Assembly (NCBI GenBank): GCA_022826245.1
Contig: JAJDVG010000012.1
Span: forward strand, 1 to 64,000
Length of the DNA: 64,000 nt
Reading direction: 5' to 3'
DNA from: Gammaproteobacteria bacterium
GTDB taxonomy: Bacteria; Pseudomonadota; Gammaproteobacteria; Steroidobacterales; Rariloculaceae
How positions within the stretch are numbered: position 1 is the first letter of the stretch; each line of letters opens with the position of its first letter. The position numbers and the translations under genes are program-made. Positions 6,708 through 15,595 of the stretch are shown here, piece after piece. The notes under the pieces were generated by a model. That model was not told where the DNA came from. It saw nothing but the letters and a program-made list of their open reading frames with translations, and made no database searches.

Positions 6708-8810
6708 CTACTCCCCGGTCCAGGTCACCTCATTCCCGGTCACGGGATTGGGATAGTGAAACGGCGGCAGGAACGCCGACGGATACATCTGGAAGGGATG
6801 CGTCGGCGGTGAATCCGGCGGATTGGACTCGCTGATGCCGGGAGGCGGGCGCGGCACGGCATCCTTCCAGCCGACCGCATACGGCACGAAATACGTGTTG
6901 AACACCTGGTCGCGCTGCATCTTCCAGATTCCGTCTTCCTTGACGTAGTCGTTCTCGTAGGTGCCGCCCATCCACATCGAATACGTCTCGTGCTCGCCCA
7001 TGATGCTGAACGCGCGCGAGCGCATCTTCGCGGTCTGCCCGTCCCCGGCGATGTGGATCACCGGCTGGTACTGCATGTGATTGTGCAGCAGGCCGTGATG
7101 AATACCGGCTTCGCCGTAGAGGTTGAGGTTGCGCCTGACGCTCGCCGAACCCGTATACACGCCGCGCAACGCGATCTCGATCGATCCGTCGCTTGCGAAT
7201 ATGCCGGCGAGGTTGTCCCACTGGTTGCGCGCGAGGTAATAGCCGTAGATCGCGTTGAGACGCTCGAGCGCGTCCATGTCTTCCAGGCGCACCACGCGCG
7301 TCTCGAGCGATTCGAGCGCGCTCTCGAGTTCGTCGCGGTCGGCCGGGATCTTGGCGGCGTCCTCCCTTGCCGATTCGGCATAAACGGGAGCGCCGGTTAC
7401 CGGATTGTCGTAGTGAAACGGCGCGACGAACACGGCCGGGTAAGCGGCGTGAGGAACGCTCGCGGGCCGGTCGGGCGGCAGCTCGTCGGACGGTCCGGGA
7501 TCGGGCAGCGCCGTCCTGCCCCAGCCATCCTCGTAGGGCGTCCTCATCGTGGAGTACAACTGCAGCCGCTGGATCTTCCAGACACCGTCTTCCCGGACGT
7601 ACTCGTTCTCGTAGACCCCCGTACCCCAATTCGCGTATTCGCCCCAGACCGCGTCCTGCTCGAACAGACGCCAGCGGCCCCTGGCGGTGGTTCGGTCGGG
7701 CGCGACGTGAACGATCGGTTGTAGCTGCATGCGGTCGGCGAGGCGCCCCTCCTGCGGGAATTCGGCGCCGCGCGTGCGCAGCCAGGCCAGCACGCGGTCC
7801 TTGCCGACGTAGACGCCGCTGTTGCCGATTTCGATCGTGCCGTCGTCCGCGAAGAGATCCGCGGCCTGGCTCCAGAGTCCCTTGTCTATGTAGAAGCCGT
7901 AAGTCCGCTGCAGGTTCTCGATCGCGTTCTCGTCTTCGAGGACGGCAATCTCGTGCTCGAGCCTGCCGGCCCGCGCGGACAGCGTCTCGAGCGATGCATC
8001 GCCGGCGATGAACTGCCGCTGCGCCATGAACTCCGTGAGCGGCGATTCGGCCCCGGCCACGGGATTGGGGAAGTGGAACGGCGGCAGATAAGTGCTTGGC
8101 CAGGTGTCGTACTCGATGGTCGACGGCCGGTCCGGCGGGAGCCGGTCGGACACCCACTTGCCGCCGTTGACGTCGTCGTTGACCTGCCAGCCGCCCTCGT
8201 ACGGCACGACGATGCTCTGGAACCAGTGGAGCTTGCTGAGCTTCCAGACGCCGTCTTCCTTGACGTATTCATTCTCGTAGGGCCCCTCGCCCCAGACGGC
8301 ATCGCCGCCGAGCTCGCCCGCCATGATGAGCGCCCGCCAGCGGCCCCTGGCCGTCATGCCGTCGGGCGCGACGGTGACGACGGGCATGAGCTGCATGTGC
8401 TCGTTCACCTGGCCTTCCCTCAGGCCCGAACGGCCGCCGCCCAACGCGTACAGGAACTCGCGGACGCGCTCCTTGCCGACATACACGCCGTCGAGCCCGA
8501 TCTCGATCGTGCCGTCGTCGGCGAAGAGGTCGACGATGTCGTCCCACATGGCCTCGTCGAGGTAGTAGCCATAGGCGCGCTGCAGGCGCTTGATGTCGGC
8601 GGCGTCCTCGACCAGCGTCTTGCGGTGCTGGAGTGCGCCGAGACGCTCGGCGAGCGAGATCAGGCCCGCGTCGCTTGCTCCGAGGCCACCGGCCTCTGAC
8701 GAAACCTCCGCCGGAGCCTGCCCGGCTTCCTGCGCCGCATCGCAGGCGACGAGCCCGAATGCCGAACCGGCCAAAAGACAAAAGAAGAATCTGAACTTGT
8801 TCACCAACAT
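6708..8810 (-). CDS. Lipoprotein with three tandem SnoaL/NTF2-like domains
   Basis: About 700 residues made of three copies of the same ~200-residue unit. Each unit begins with a short coiled segment (LEDxxAIExLxxxYGYY), continues with a SnoaL-like block (LFADDGTIEIGLDGVYVG) and MQLxPVxxVAPDGxTAxGRWR, and ends with ENEYVKEDGVWKLxxL and a proline-rich FHFPNPVTG linker. The signal peptide ends GLVAC, a lipobox, which fixes the start at 8810 rather than 8861. SnoaL folds can be cyclases, isomerases or ligand binders; no active site can be assigned. Triplication in one secreted chain is unusual. It may be co-transcribed with the amidohydrolase upstream, from which it is 98 bases away. Confidence 0.82.
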   Translation of the reverse strand: MLVNKFRFFFCLLAGSAFGLVACDAAQEAGQAPAEVSSEAGGLGASDAGLISLAERLGALQHRKTLVEDAADIKRLQRAYGYYLDEAMWDDIVDLFADDGTIEIGLDGVYVGKERVREFLYALGGGRSGLREGQVNEHMQLMPVVTVAPDGMTARGRWRALIMAGELGGDAVWGEGPYENEYVKEDGVWKLSKLHWFQSIVVPYEGGWQVNDDVNGGKWVSDRLPPDRPSTIEYDTWPSTYLPPFHFPNPVAGAESPLTEFMAQRQFIAGDASLETLSARAGRLEHEIAVLEDENAIENLQRTYGFYIDKGLWSQAADLFADDGTIEIGNSGVYVGKDRVLAWLRTRGAEFPQEGRLADRMQLQPIVHVAPDRTTARGRWRLFEQDAVWGEYANWGTGVYENEYVREDGVWKIQRLQLYSTMRTPYEDGWGRTALPDPGPSDELPPDRPASVPHAAYPAVFVAPFHYDNPVTGAPVYAESAREDAAKIPADRDELESALESLETRVVRLEDMDALERLNAIYGYYLARNQWDNLAGIFASDGSIEIALRGVYTGSASVRRNLNLYGEAGIHHGLLHNHMQYQPVIHIAGDGQTAKMRSRAFSIMGEHETYSMWMGGTYENDYVKEDGIWKMQRDQVFNTYFVPYAVGWKDAVPRPPPGISESNPPDSPPTHPFQMYPSAFLPPFHYPNPVTGNEVTWTGE

Positions 8811-8908
8811 CGCTCCCCGGCGTTCAATGCTCGCAACCTCCGGCAACGCCTCCGCAATCATTTGCCTTCAGCCGGCCCGGGCTGCCATCCCGGCCGCGCG
8901 GCGCAACA

Positions 8909-10587: not shown

Positions 10588-11514
10588 CTATTGTAGCCAC
10601 TCGCTGAACCAGCTCGCGGCCTCGCGGGCGGCGATCTCCAGGTGCGACAGGTTGCTGTACATACTCATGTGCGTGCTCTGCTGTTGCACGAAGAGTTTCT
10701 TCTTTGTCGTGGCGATCTCGCCGAACGCCGGAATCTCGCGCTCCCACATCGTCAGATCGTCGCCTTCCGCGACGATCATGAGGGTCGGCGTGTCGAGAAT
10801 CCGCGGCAGATAGGGCCTCACATCATAGCTCCACACGAGTTCCGTCGATTCGATCGTGCTGTAGTGTTCGTGGCGCGGCGCCGATTCGGCCTTGATCTTC
10901 ATGAAGACCGGCTTCGTCTCCGGATGCGGCCATGTGACGACTTCGGTCTTGGGATCACCCGAATGCGGGATATGACCGTGCACGCCGGTCAGGTAGCGCT
11001 TGCGCCGCTCCGCTTCGATCAGCGCCGTCAGCTCACGGAAGCCGACCGAGCCGTGGGCTCGCATCGAGTTGTACCAGCCCTCGATGATCGGGATCTGCGA
11101 GACGATGCACTTGACGCGCCAGTCGAGCGCGCCGACCGCGAGCGCGTGCCCGCCGCTGTAGGAAATCCCCCAGACCCCGATCCTCGCGGGATCGATCTCG
11201 TCGGCGAATTCGTCCAGGTAGCTCACGGCGTCGATCGCGCTTCGATAGTCGGCAATCTGCTTGCGCGGATCGAGGTGCTGGCGAGGTTCGCCGTCGCTCG
11301 CGCCGAGATGCCGGTAGTCGAAAATCAACGCGGCGCAGCCGGCGGCGACGAAGTACTCCGCGTACTCCGGCATGATGAGTTCCTTGACGTAGCACCAGCC
11401 TCCGCCCATGACGACGACGGGCCGCGGTCCCTGCCCGGTTTCGGGCAGGTACAGATCAGCGCGAATCATCTCGTCGCGGTTCTCGCTTGAAAATTCGACC
11501 TCTCGTTTCAGCAT
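10588..11514 (-). CDS. Alpha/beta hydrolase (dipeptidyl-peptidase/xylan-esterase-like)
   Basis: A ~308-residue alpha/beta hydrolase without a signal peptide. The core shows VVVMGGGWCYVKE (oxyanion region), GVWGISYSGGHAL (serine nucleophile elbow GxSxSGG), an aspartate in VAEGDDLTMW and a histidine near QSTHMSMY. It resembles bacterial proteins annotated as X-Pro dipeptidyl-peptidase-like or acetyl-xylan-esterase-like hydrolases. ATG 11514 follows GGAGGA; an ATG at 11568 is possible but lacks such a site. It heads a likely operon with the exported amidohydrolase and is divergent from the bufferin operon. Confidence 0.82.
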   Translation of the reverse strand: MLKREVEFSSENRDEMIRADLYLPETGQGPRPVVVMGGGWCYVKELIMPEYAEYFVAAGCAALIFDYRHLGASDGEPRQHLDPRKQIADYRSAIDAVSYLDEFADEIDPARIGVWGISYSGGHALAVGALDWRVKCIVSQIPIIEGWYNSMRAHGSVGFRELTALIEAERRKRYLTGVHGHIPHSGDPKTEVVTWPHPETKPVFMKIKAESAPRHEHYSTIESTELVWSYDVRPYLPRILDTPTLMIVAEGDDLTMWEREIPAFGEIATTKKKLFVQQQSTHMSMYSNLSHLEIAAREAASWFSEWLQ

Positions 11515-11763
11515 CGCGTCCTCCGTTATCGCGACCTCGACGGTCTGCGTCTGCGCCCGATCCGACACTATACGCGCGTACGGCCATCCGGCGGTCGGCG
11601 GGAACGGAGTTCGTTGGACCGATTACTGCGCACAACTCCCAATTGGGAGTAGAATCGATCACGGTCGGGAATATACGTCTCAAGGGGAGCGATCCAACCG
11701 CCAGGATCGACGTTCCCAACAAGGCTACCGGTCCGGCCCATGTCCTATCGATACGAGGTCGAG
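11515..11763. promoter_or_regulatory. Divergent control region between hydrolase and bufferin operons
   Basis: This ~250-base gap contains no convincing gene and must hold the promoters for both directions. On the plus strand about 11640-11690 there is an AT-richer patch including GGGAATATACGTCTCAAG. The CGTCTC element could be the -10 of an extracytoplasmic-function sigma promoter, which would fit known control of bufferin operons, but no clear -35 partner at the right distance was found. GAGG at 11755-11758 precedes the bufA start. Confidence 0.35.
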
Positions 11764-12045
11764 ATGATGAAGACAAGAAAAGACGCGTTGATAACTTCGG
11801 CGATCGGCAGCCTGCTGGCCGTGGGCGCTTTCACGCTCGCGAACCAGGGTGTTGCCCAGGACGCCGAGCAGGAACAGGAACGCTGCTACGGGGTCGTCAA
11901 GGCAGGCGCCAACGACTGCGCCGGTCCGGGCCACACCTGTCAGGGGCAGGCCAGCGAAGACGGCAGCCCGCAAGAGTACATCCTCGTTCCGGTCGGCACC
12001 TGCGAACGCCTGGTCAACGGCAGCACGACAGCCAGAACCGAGTAA
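11764..12045 (+). CDS. bufA: Bufferin precursor (DUF2282/BufA family)
   Basis: A 93-residue secreted RiPP precursor. The family is known from Caulobacter and others to be exported, oxidatively modified on cysteines to thiooxazoles, and to chelate copper. Here a Sec signal (MKTRKDALITSAIGSLLAVG, cleavage near GVAQ) is followed by a cysteine-bearing mature part: RCYGVVKAGANDCAG, HTC and VPVGTCE, with cysteines at 41, 52, 59 and 80. The CYGxxKAGxNDC signature is diagnostic. ATG 11764 or 11767 is preferred because GAGG lies just upstream. The TAA stop shares a base with the next start (TAATG), implying translational coupling to the modifying enzyme. Confidence 0.9.
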   Translation: MMKTRKDALITSAIGSLLAVGAFTLANQGVAQDAEQEQERCYGVVKAGANDCAGPGHTCQGQASEDGSPQEYILVPVGTCERLVNGSTTARTE

Positions 12046-12911
12046 TGACCCAAAGCGTCGCGGGCGACGCACGGCCGATTCCAGCCATTGCCGGCATCGG
12101 CCTGCGCGGCCCGCATCAGGCGCATTTCCTCAACGACAAGCCGGCTGCGGGCTGGCTCGAGGCGCACAGCGAGAACTATTTCGCCGAAGACGGCATCGCG
12201 CTGGCGACACTCGAGCGAATCCGGGCGGACTACCCGGTCAGCCTGCACGGCGTGGGGCTTTCGATCGGTTCCGTCGACCCGCTCGACACCGGGCACCTGA
12301 CCCGACTTGCCCGCCTCGTCGAACGCATCGAGCCCGGGCTCGTCTCCGAACACCTGTCCTGGGGCGCGGTCGACGGGCGCCACCTCAACGACCTACTGCC
12401 GCTTCCATACACCGGGGAAGCGCTCGCTCACGTTGCCGGGCGGATCGAGCAGGTGCAGGATCGTCTCGGGCGGCAGATCCTGATCGAGAACGTCTCGAGC
12501 TACCTGGAGTTCACGAGTTCGACGATGCCCGAATGGGAGTTTCTCGTCGAGACCGCCACGCGCAGCGGCGCGAAGATTCTGCTCGATGTGAACAACATCT
12601 ACGTGAACTCGCAGAACCACGGTTTCACGGCCAGCGACTACATCGAATCCATCCCGGTCGAGCTCGTCGGCGAGATTCATCTGGCCGGCCACACCGTGCA
12701 GCAGTACGACGGGCACGAGATTCTCGTCGACACCCACAACGCGCTCGTCTGCGACGCGGTCTGGACGCTCTACGCCGCCGCGATCGCCCGGTTCGGTCCG
12801 ACACCGACCCTGATCGAGTGGGATTCGGAACTGCCGCCCGTCGAGACGCTGCTCGCTGAAGCCGCGCGCGCCCAGCGAACCATGGACAGCTACGGTGAGC
12901 GCGCTGCATAG
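12045..12911 (+). CDS. bufB: DUF692 multinuclear non-haem iron oxidase (bufferin maturase)
   Basis: A 288-residue TIM-barrel enzyme of the DUF692/MNIO family, which carries two or three iron ions and oxidises cysteines of the precursor. Visible candidate metal ligands include LHGVGL (His68), SEHLSWG (Glu102, His103), LIENVSSYLEF (Glu148, Asn149), LLDVNNIYVN (Asp181), NHGF (His192), GEIHLAGH (Glu210, His212, His216), DTHN (His231) and IEWDSELP (Glu258). The start is inside a TAATG overlap with bufA; upstream in-frame codons are discarded because they overlap the precursor. It overlaps bufC by 17 bases. Confidence 0.93.
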   Translation: MTQSVAGDARPIPAIAGIGLRGPHQAHFLNDKPAAGWLEAHSENYFAEDGIALATLERIRADYPVSLHGVGLSIGSVDPLDTGHLTRLARLVERIEPGLVSEHLSWGAVDGRHLNDLLPLPYTGEALAHVAGRIEQVQDRLGRQILIENVSSYLEFTSSTMPEWEFLVETATRSGAKILLDVNNIYVNSQNHGFTASDYIESIPVELVGEIHLAGHTVQQYDGHEILVDTHNALVCDAVWTLYAAAIARFGPTPTLIEWDSELPPVETLLAEAARAQRTMDSYGERAA

Positions 12912-13665
12912 GCTGCAGCGCGACTGCGAGCGCGCGTTTCGGGGCGCGGCTGCTGCGCCGCTGCTGCCCGCTCTCGTCGGCAACGCGATACCCGCCGCAA
13001 CGCGCGTTGAGGTGTACCGCAACAACGCCCGGGAAATCTGCCGCAAGGCGCTCGGGAACTCCTGTCCCGTCGTCGAGCAGCTCGTCGGCGATGCCTGCTT
13101 CCGGTCGCTGGCACTTCAGTATCTCGACGAGCACCCGTCAACGAGCGGCGACCTGCAATACTTCGGCCGCGAGTTTCCCGCGGTCCTCGACACGCTGTAT
13201 GCGAAGTCGGAATACGGCTACCTCGGCGATGTCGCGCGGCTCGAGCTTGCGATCGAATCCGCGCTGCTCGCGCCCGAAGCCCGGACGCTCGATCTCGAGG
13301 CCCTCGCGGATGTGCCTGCGGACCGGCTCGGCGATGTCGTGTTCGCAACGGCGCCGTCGCTGCGCCTTGTCGAATCCCGGTATCCGGTGCTCTCGATCTG
13401 GCGCGCGCATCAGTCGGACGGCGAGGAAACAGTGGATCTTTGCAGCGGGGCCGAATACGTCGCGGTACGGCGCGCGGGCGACGAGGTCGAGCTGCGCCTG
13501 ATCGATCGACCGGCGCTCGAACTCGGCCGCGCACTGGACGGCCGTGCGAGCCTGTCTCAGGTATGGGATGAACTCCCGGACGACGTGCGCGACGCGCTGA
13601 CGGGCGCGCTCAAGTCGCTCGCGATCGCCGGCGGCCTGTCACACTTCTCCCTGCCGGGGCGCTGA
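12895..13665 (+). CDS. bufC: DUF2063 partner protein of the bufferin maturase
   Basis: A 256-residue protein with a DUF2063 N-terminal domain (about residues 5-100; VEVYRNNAREICRKALGNSCPVVEQLVG) and a less conserved C-terminal part. In bufferin and related MNIO systems this partner binds the precursor leader and delivers it to the DUF692 enzyme. The gene begins with GTG inside the end of bufB, so the two are coupled in translation and are expected at matched levels. No signal peptide is present, consistent with modification in the cytoplasm before export. Confidence 0.9.
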   Translation: MSALHRLQRDCERAFRGAAAAPLLPALVGNAIPAATRVEVYRNNAREICRKALGNSCPVVEQLVGDACFRSLALQYLDEHPSTSGDLQYFGREFPAVLDTLYAKSEYGYLGDVARLELAIESALLAPEARTLDLEALADVPADRLGDVVFATAPSLRLVESRYPVLSIWRAHQSDGEETVDLCSGAEYVAVRRAGDEVELRLIDRPALELGRALDGRASLSQVWDELPDDVRDALTGALKSLAIAGGLSHFSLPGR

Positions 13666-13698
13666 TACGGCGAGGGCCAGAAACGAAAGGACAAGATC

Positions 13699-14175
13699 AT
13701 GCTCGACAAAGCGACCCAATGGCTGGTCTATCTGCCGGCCACGCTGCTCAATCGCGTGCAGGATGTTTTCGCGCTGGCGATCCGCTTCTACGTGGGCTGG
13801 CAGTTCTTCAAGGCCGGTCAGCTCAAGATCAATTCCTGGAGCAACACGCTGCAGCAGTTCCAGTTCGATTTTCAGGTTCCGTTGTTGCCGCCCTACGCGG
13901 CCGCCGTCCTCGGGACGTTCGGCGAGATGTTCTTCCCCGTGCTGCTGTGGATCGGCCTCACGACCCGGCTCGCCGCGGTCGGGCTGCAGATCGTCAATAT
14001 CGTCGCCGTGATCTCGGTGCTGTACCTGTTCCCGAACGGGCTTTCCGACCCCGCATTCGGCGATCACTTCCTCTGGGGACTCATGATGCTCGGCCTGACG
14101 TTCTACGGTCCCGGCCGACTGTCGATCGACTATCTGTTGATCCGGCGCCGCCGTAACGTGTTTCAGGGCCTGTGA
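13699..14175 (+). CDS. DoxX-family membrane protein of the bufferin operon
   Basis: A 158-residue four-helix membrane protein of the DoxX family (FYVGWQFFKAGQLKI at the first helix, then LGTFGEMFFPVLLWIGLTTRLAA). DoxX proteins commonly form the last gene of bufA-B-C operons; their role there is unproven, with quinone-linked redox or a metal-related envelope function proposed. It starts 33 bases after bufC behind GAAAGGA. It runs convergently toward the short lipoprotein gene at 14245. Confidence 0.88.
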   Translation: MLDKATQWLVYLPATLLNRVQDVFALAIRFYVGWQFFKAGQLKINSWSNTLQQFQFDFQVPLLPPYAAAVLGTFGEMFFPVLLWIGLTTRLAAVGLQIVNIVAVISVLYLFPNGLSDPAFGDHFLWGLMMLGLTFYGPGRLSIDYLLIRRRRNVFQGL

Positions 14176-14549: not shown

Positions 14550-15437
14550 TCAAGCGGCAGCGGGTTCGATCCCGGCCTGGGCCATCGCCGCGAACACGGC
14601 GCCGCGATACTCCGCCGCCAACTCCGTCAACGGCAAGCGGATGCCGGGCCCGGCAAGTCCCATCCGTCCAACGGCCCACTTCACGGGAATCGGGTTGCTC
14701 TCGACGAAGAGCGTGTCATGCAGCCCCCTGAGATTGACATCGATACGCTCCGCGGCGGCGCGATCGCCGGCGCGCGCCATGTCGCACAGCGCCCGCATGG
14801 CTTGAGCGGCCACGTTGGCCGTGACGGATATCACGCCGTCGCCGCCCATCAGCATGAATTCGCAACTGGTCGCATCGTCGCCGCTCAGCAGGGAAAACCC
14901 GGGTCCGCACCCGTCTCTGAGCGTTGCGACCCGATCGAGTTCCGCCGTAGCGTCCTTGAGCGACGCGATATTACCGTGCGCGGACAGGCGAATCACCGTA
15001 CTCGAATGCAGGTCCACGCCCGTTCGACCGGGCACGTTGTACAGGATCAGCGGCTGGCTTACGGCATCGGCGACCGTGCAGAAGTGCCGGTACATGCCCT
15101 CCTGGGTCGGTTTGTTGTAGTACGGCGTAACCACGAGAAAGGCCTCGACCGGCAAGCCGTCGACAGCGCGCGAAAGGTTCAGCGTCTGCGCGGTCGAGTT
15201 CGAGCCCGTACCTGCGACGATCGGGACGCGGCCGCCGGCGAGTTCGCAGGCCGCCGCGATGAGTTCGATGTGCTCGTCGTGTTCGAGCGTGGCGGACTCT
15301 CCCGTCGTGCCGGCAATCACGAGCGCCTGCGTACCCGATTCGACGTGGAAGTCCATGAGCCGGCCGAGATCGGCATAATCGATGGCGCCGTCAGCGTTCA
15401 TTGGCGTTACGAGCGCAACCATGCTCCCGGCCAACAT
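14550..15437 (-). CDS. dapA: 4-hydroxy-tetrahydrodipicolinate synthase
   Basis: Condenses pyruvate and aspartate semialdehyde in the first committed step of lysine and diaminopimelate synthesis. The start MLAGSMVALVTPM aligns with the family N-terminus and follows GGGCGGGAG. AGTTGESATL, YYNKPTQEGMY, the catalytic tyrosine in ILYNVPGRTGVDL and the Schiff-base lysine in IASLKDATA are all present. 295 residues is normal. A longer frame to 15497 is disregarded because the known N-terminus begins at 15437. It is divergent from gcvR. Confidence 0.97.
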   Translation of the reverse strand: MLAGSMVALVTPMNADGAIDYADLGRLMDFHVESGTQALVIAGTTGESATLEHDEHIELIAAACELAGGRVPIVAGTGSNSTAQTLNLSRAVDGLPVEAFLVVTPYYNKPTQEGMYRHFCTVADAVSQPLILYNVPGRTGVDLHSSTVIRLSAHGNIASLKDATAELDRVATLRDGCGPGFSLLSGDDATSCEFMLMGGDGVISVTANVAAQAMRALCDMARAGDRAAAERIDVNLRGLHDTLFVESNPIPVKWAVGRMGLAGPGIRLPLTELAAEYRGAVFAAMAQAGIEPAAA

Positions 15438-15595
15438 CGACAACTCCCGCCCGGTAAAAAGGCGGTCGATGGTACTGAGCGGCCCGGACAGGCGCAACCG
15501 GCAACCCGCGGCTGAACGCCGCCTCGCGCCTCGTTACACGCCAACGAGTTCAGAGTAAACTGACGTGTTTTGCGTCCGGGTGAAACGTCCCGCGA

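Follow-up and report, generated by a model that had tools for sequence, protein, structure and literature searches.

A Buf1-type bufferin operon from an uncultured gammaproteobacterial lineage

Gene order at the bufA-bufB-bufC-doxX locus

In this work, the genes bufA, bufB, bufC and doxX and their surroundings were analysed in a gammaproteobacterial window, i.e. the whole stretch of 64,000 nucleotides under study (Table 1). An earlier note on this DNA had proposed a complete four-gene bufferin operon, and this holds: the four frames are intact at the positions in the table, all lie on the forward strand, and the Pfam score of every product exceeds its cut-off. The gene order, bufA-bufB-bufC and then doxX, is the canonical order of bufferin (Buf1) operons. 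The junctions were said to consist of a TAATG and overlaps, and this is so for two of the three: bufA and bufB have a TAATG in common and the last 17 nt of bufB overlap the start of bufC, whereas bufC and doxX are separated by 33 nt. An AAAGGA-like ribosome site of its own precedes doxX. The whole genome contains one MNIO gene and one DUF2282 gene, which are adjacent to each other.

Table 1. Features of the locus, with Pfam scores and dN/dS against the operon of a congener.
Feature	Position	Strand	Start; stop	Pfam match (cut-off)	dN/dS	Remarks
Palindrome upstream of bufA	11635-11650				 	perfect, 16 bp, runs into TAGAAT box; possible operator
Alpha/beta hydrolase gene	10588-11568	-				divergent from bufA
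bufA, DUF2282 (Buf1) bufferin precursor, 93 aa	11764-12045	+	ATG 11764; TAA 12043-12045	DUF2282, PF10048, 72.1 bits (22.4)	~0.07	four Cys
bufB, MNIO (DUF692) bufferin maturase, 288 aa	12045-12911	+	ATG within TAATG at 12045; TAG 12911	MbnB_TglH_ChrH, PF05114, 350.7 bits (25)	~0.19	NF050167; AlphaFold model
bufC, DUF2063 partner protein (PME type 1), 256 aa	12895-13665	+	GTG 12895; TGA 13665	DUF2063, PF09836, 70.1 bits (27.2)	~0.19	
doxX, DoxX/HvfX-like membrane protein, 158 aa	13699-14175	+	ATG 13699; TGA 14175	DoxX, PF07681, 56.2 bits (23.6)	~0.18	
dapA	14550-15497	-				downstream, among oppositely oriented genes

Family assignment, selection and relatives

Almost all of the sequence features that can be tested support the assignment of the locus to the Buf1 (DUF2282) bufferins. 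BufB passed the NCBI BufB equivalog model NF050167 (MNIO_BufB) with 384.1 bits against a cut-off of 310. The DUF2063 domain is present in the partner protein encoded after the MNIO gene, and the length of BufC fits a partner with an RRE-type C-terminal domain; its residues 35-234 matched the HvfC (RRE) model NF050145 with 32.9 bits, below the cut-off of 142. No relative of BufC with a solved structure was reached by sequence, either with the single sequence or with a 35-row profile. DoxX scored 57.7 bits on the HvfX model NF050144, under its cut-off of 80. The precursor reached 102.9 bits on its profile, and 1000 shuffles of its mature part reached at most 30.9 bits; the signal region was left intact in this control, and the shuffle scores of up to 31 bits probably stem from it. 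The Pfam scores, the dN/dS of 0.07-0.19 in four genes and the precursor score compared with the shuffles therefore exclude a chance origin of the operon.

A close comparison was provided by an operon of the same genus in a public genome (JAJEGN010000012.1; L033/L053), which contains the same four genes in the same order and with the same flanking genes. By comparing the two operons, all four genes were found to be under purifying selection, which is strongest on bufA (Table 1). BufA is 95% identical, and in its mature part (the 62 residues that follow the probable cleavage site) the sole change is Ser64 to Thr. BufB is 84% identical, and 16-20% of the sites of the maturases are changed, so the precursor is the most constrained product of the four genes. 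The congener differs in that its bufC starts with ATG instead of GTG and that its upstream palindrome is imperfect. The downstream dapA, ACT-domain, peroxiredoxin and M48 genes are kept in the congener. Furthermore, the dapA, ACT-domain regulator and M48 peptidase genes also lie beside the operon in L034, a genome of another genus. The retention of these neighbours outside the genus suggests vertical inheritance, with the locus kept across two or more genera of the same family.

A DUF2282 match was found in 65 of 246 genomes drawn from the order and in 9 of the 22 listed genomes of the host's family, incomplete drafts included; the other 13 are without one. In a set of about 121 related loci, bufA-bufB-bufC is the dominant order. 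In 40 of them doxX directly follows bufC, and many of the other loci are cut short; all were found through their own DUF2282 or BufB match, so the counts give no unbiased frequency. Three genomes of the host's family (L006, L007 and L012) carry a different precursor (CYGISLAG-NDC-AGPGTTCAGTS...). There is thus more than one Buf1 precursor type within the family, which suggests an exchange of precursor types inside it. Other arrangements were also observed: in L081:1874-4961, three DUF2282 precursor genes lie upstream of a single bufB-bufC-doxX set, and in L056:1060-1948 bufA and doxX form a pair some 3 kb ahead of bufB-bufC, and no bufA match immediately precedes bufB.

The palindrome ACTCCCAATTGGGAGT separates bufA from the divergent hydrolase gene, and a genome search that allowed up to one mismatch gave no second copy. 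In the congener it is partly conserved: TAGAATCGAT is fully kept there, and GTAGAATCGAT and an imperfect inverted repeat are retained. No palindrome-like site was seen by eye upstream in the relatives of other genera. With one genome copy and no such site in those genera, a regulon-wide operator was rejected. As a weak lead, the palindrome may be an operator of the bufferin genes, or it may equally serve the divergent hydrolase gene.

Conserved residues of BufA and BufB

The N-terminus of BufA, read by eye, consists of the basic stretch MMKTRKD, a hydrophobic stretch at residues 8-26 and a plausible cleavage site GVA-QD, which gives a Sec-like signal region of about residues 1-31. Cys41, Cys52, Cys59 and Cys80 are conserved in 100% of 93 Buf1-like sequences, and the numbering of Cys52 and Cys59 in the earlier note is correct. 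That note also held that the C-terminal half differs from the commonest version. This is true of residues such as Tyr72, where 67% of the Buf1 members carry Trp; structurally it does not stand, as the Cys spacing is normal, no Cys is changed and every residue of this half is present in other Buf1 members. The less common residues and their frequencies in Buf1 members are Arg40 (5%), Ala49 (8%), Ser68 (6%), Tyr72 (6%) and Val77 (5%). Ala49 lies just ahead of the C-terminal half, at a position usually occupied by Lys or Gln (Lys in 40%).

The stretch CAGPGHTCQGQA...EYILLPAGTC is mostly shared by three genomes of the same family (L026, L030 and L034, the last with EFILLPAGTC), and AGPGHTCQGQ…EYILLPAGTC is likewise common to relatives in this family. 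The difference of the precursor is therefore a lineage signature and not a new type, because same-family relatives have most of it. An unusual precursor type was ruled out by the invariant Cys pattern together with the occurrence of all C-terminal residues elsewhere in Buf1. The suggestion that the precursor may be undescribed likewise finds no support of any consequence, since a near-identical copy is present in the public genome of the congener and the variation is an ordinary one. The AlphaFold model of the precursor (pLDDT 71) was of too low confidence for use.

Among 77 relatives of BufB, no variation was seen at H68, H103, E148, D181, N184, H212, D229, H231 and E258, and N183 and D260, the latter the proposed catalytic base, are nearly invariant. 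The AlphaFold model of BufB (pLDDT 95.3) matched 3BWW best (E 4e-22), followed by TglH and MbnB. Alignments place the invariant residues on conserved positions of 3BWW, and most of them also on TglH and MbnB. These positions correspond to known MNIO iron ligands and are hence candidate ligands. The earlier note had made its reading depend on conserved iron ligands; in the alignments and the model, the candidate ligands are conserved and the predicted fold is that of an MNIO. It was reported that N175, D242 and H244 are essential in HvfB (PMC13419390), and they align with N183 or N184, D229 and H231 of BufB, respectively. In FonB, D249 was proposed as the catalytic base and the adjacent F250 as a specificity residue (PMC12668002); they align with D260 and Ser261 of BufB. 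Conservation of the F250 site was reported to be lacking in DUF2282 enzymes (PMC12668002), and Ser261 is consistent with this. Residue 176 of BufB (12570-12572), which is no predicted ligand, is Ala here and in the congener and Cys in at least 90% of the BufB relatives.

Proposed function and alternative readings

We consider it very probable, by analogy with characterised systems, that the locus is a Buf1-type bufferin operon whose modified, exported peptide buffers periplasmic copper excess. The proposed mechanism is that of the characterised bufferins and captophorins, which is the best supported one, and its chemistry is taken from these relatives (PMC12452194, PMC13097082/PMC12668002, PMC13419390). 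From them we infer, on sound grounds, the modification chemistry, the export, the copper binding and the induction by copper. BufA would be made with a Sec-type signal peptide, and BufB, with a multinuclear iron site, would form a cytoplasmic complex with BufC, which would present the peptide. This complex would oxidise each of Cys52 and Cys59 to a 5-thiooxazole, with a loss of four electrons and 4 Da per residue. The peptide would be exported by Sec, its signal removed and a Cys41-Cys80 disulphide formed; in the Buf1 bufferins characterised, the two inner Cys are modified and a disulphide links the outer pair (PMC12452194). For cleavage after Ala31, the calculated monoisotopic mass of the mature peptide would be 6508.93 Da without modification, 6500.87 Da with two thiooxazoles and 6498.85 Da with the disulphide in addition. 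The mature peptide would bind periplasmic copper and so buffer its excess, and DoxX, which is part of the core of Buf1/DUF2282 gene clusters (PMC12452194), would have an accessory membrane role.

The operon is a real but ordinary case of the already described bufferin family. Bufferin 1 of Caulobacter vibrioides (PMC12452194) likewise has a four-Cys DUF2282 precursor, an MNIO and a DUF2063 partner in the order A-B-C. A signal-type N-terminus is probably shared as well, and the host precursor differs from it in sequence within the normal range of the family. Caulobacter has an NrsF anti-sigma factor gene, whereas none was found in the host genome, which rules out an NrsF/ECF sigma type of control like the one in Caulobacter. 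Oxazolin/HvfABC of Haemophilus influenzae and the fontiphorin FonABC (captophorins) also combine an MNIO with a DUF2063 partner, and the 5-thiooxazole chemistry would be shared. Their precursors carry EGKCG repeats, which BufA lacks, and BufB scored 245.6 bits against the HvfB cut-off of 360; an oxazolin or EGKCG captophorin was ruled out on these grounds. A Buf2 bufferin was also rejected, since these have six or twelve conserved Cys and BufA has four, and the BufA2 model gave 24.8 bits against a cut-off of 60; this model also matches 58 of 76 aligned Buf1-type members (E up to 0.001). The operon is one more clean, minimal bufferin example, in an uncultured gammaproteobacterial lineage, and opens no new question.

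It is unlikely that, with the same family and chemistry, the main metal or stress is one other than copper, such as gold, mercury or oxidative stress. In Cupriavidus metallidurans and Legionella pneumophila, the GIG operons, which encode the same four protein families, were shown to respond both to gold and to copper (PMC5413113). MerC fusions occur in the bufferin family (PMC12452194), and the scan of the flanking genes gave neither a copper gene nor a known metal regulator. However, copper binding is known from the characterised bufferins and from related 5-thiooxazole peptides. We regard it as very unlikely that the clade-specific precursor (acidic, with Ala49 and Tyr72, and under tighter conservation than its maturases) has become adapted to another metal or another partner than those of the characterised bufferins.

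Still less probable is that BufB-BufC install the isomeric oxazolone/thioamide pair of the methanobactin type and not the 5-thiooxazole. The mass loss of the two is identical, they are readily mistaken for one another, and the first assignment of oxazolin was of this kind, but every characterised enzyme with a DUF2063 partner has been assigned to 5-thiooxazole. The methanobactin system MbnABC has the MNIO fold and iron site in common with BufB; on the other hand, BufB scored 54.8 bits on the MbnB model against a cut-off of 325, BufA has a putative signal-type N-terminus, and no MbnC-type partner was found. A methanobactin operon was ruled out by the MbnB score and the missing MbnC match. Decay or loss of function has a negligible probability: the host is known solely from a draft assembly and 13 of the 22 family genomes are without a DUF2282 match, but the four reading frames are intact, their dN/dS is low and the active-site residues are invariant.

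Elsewhere in the window, the reverse strand at 6708-8861 encodes a protein of 717 aa that carries three SnoaL_4 domains, an unusual triple arrangement. Its gene lies next to an amidohydrolase gene, and the protein is kept in the congener with 84% identity over 634 aa.
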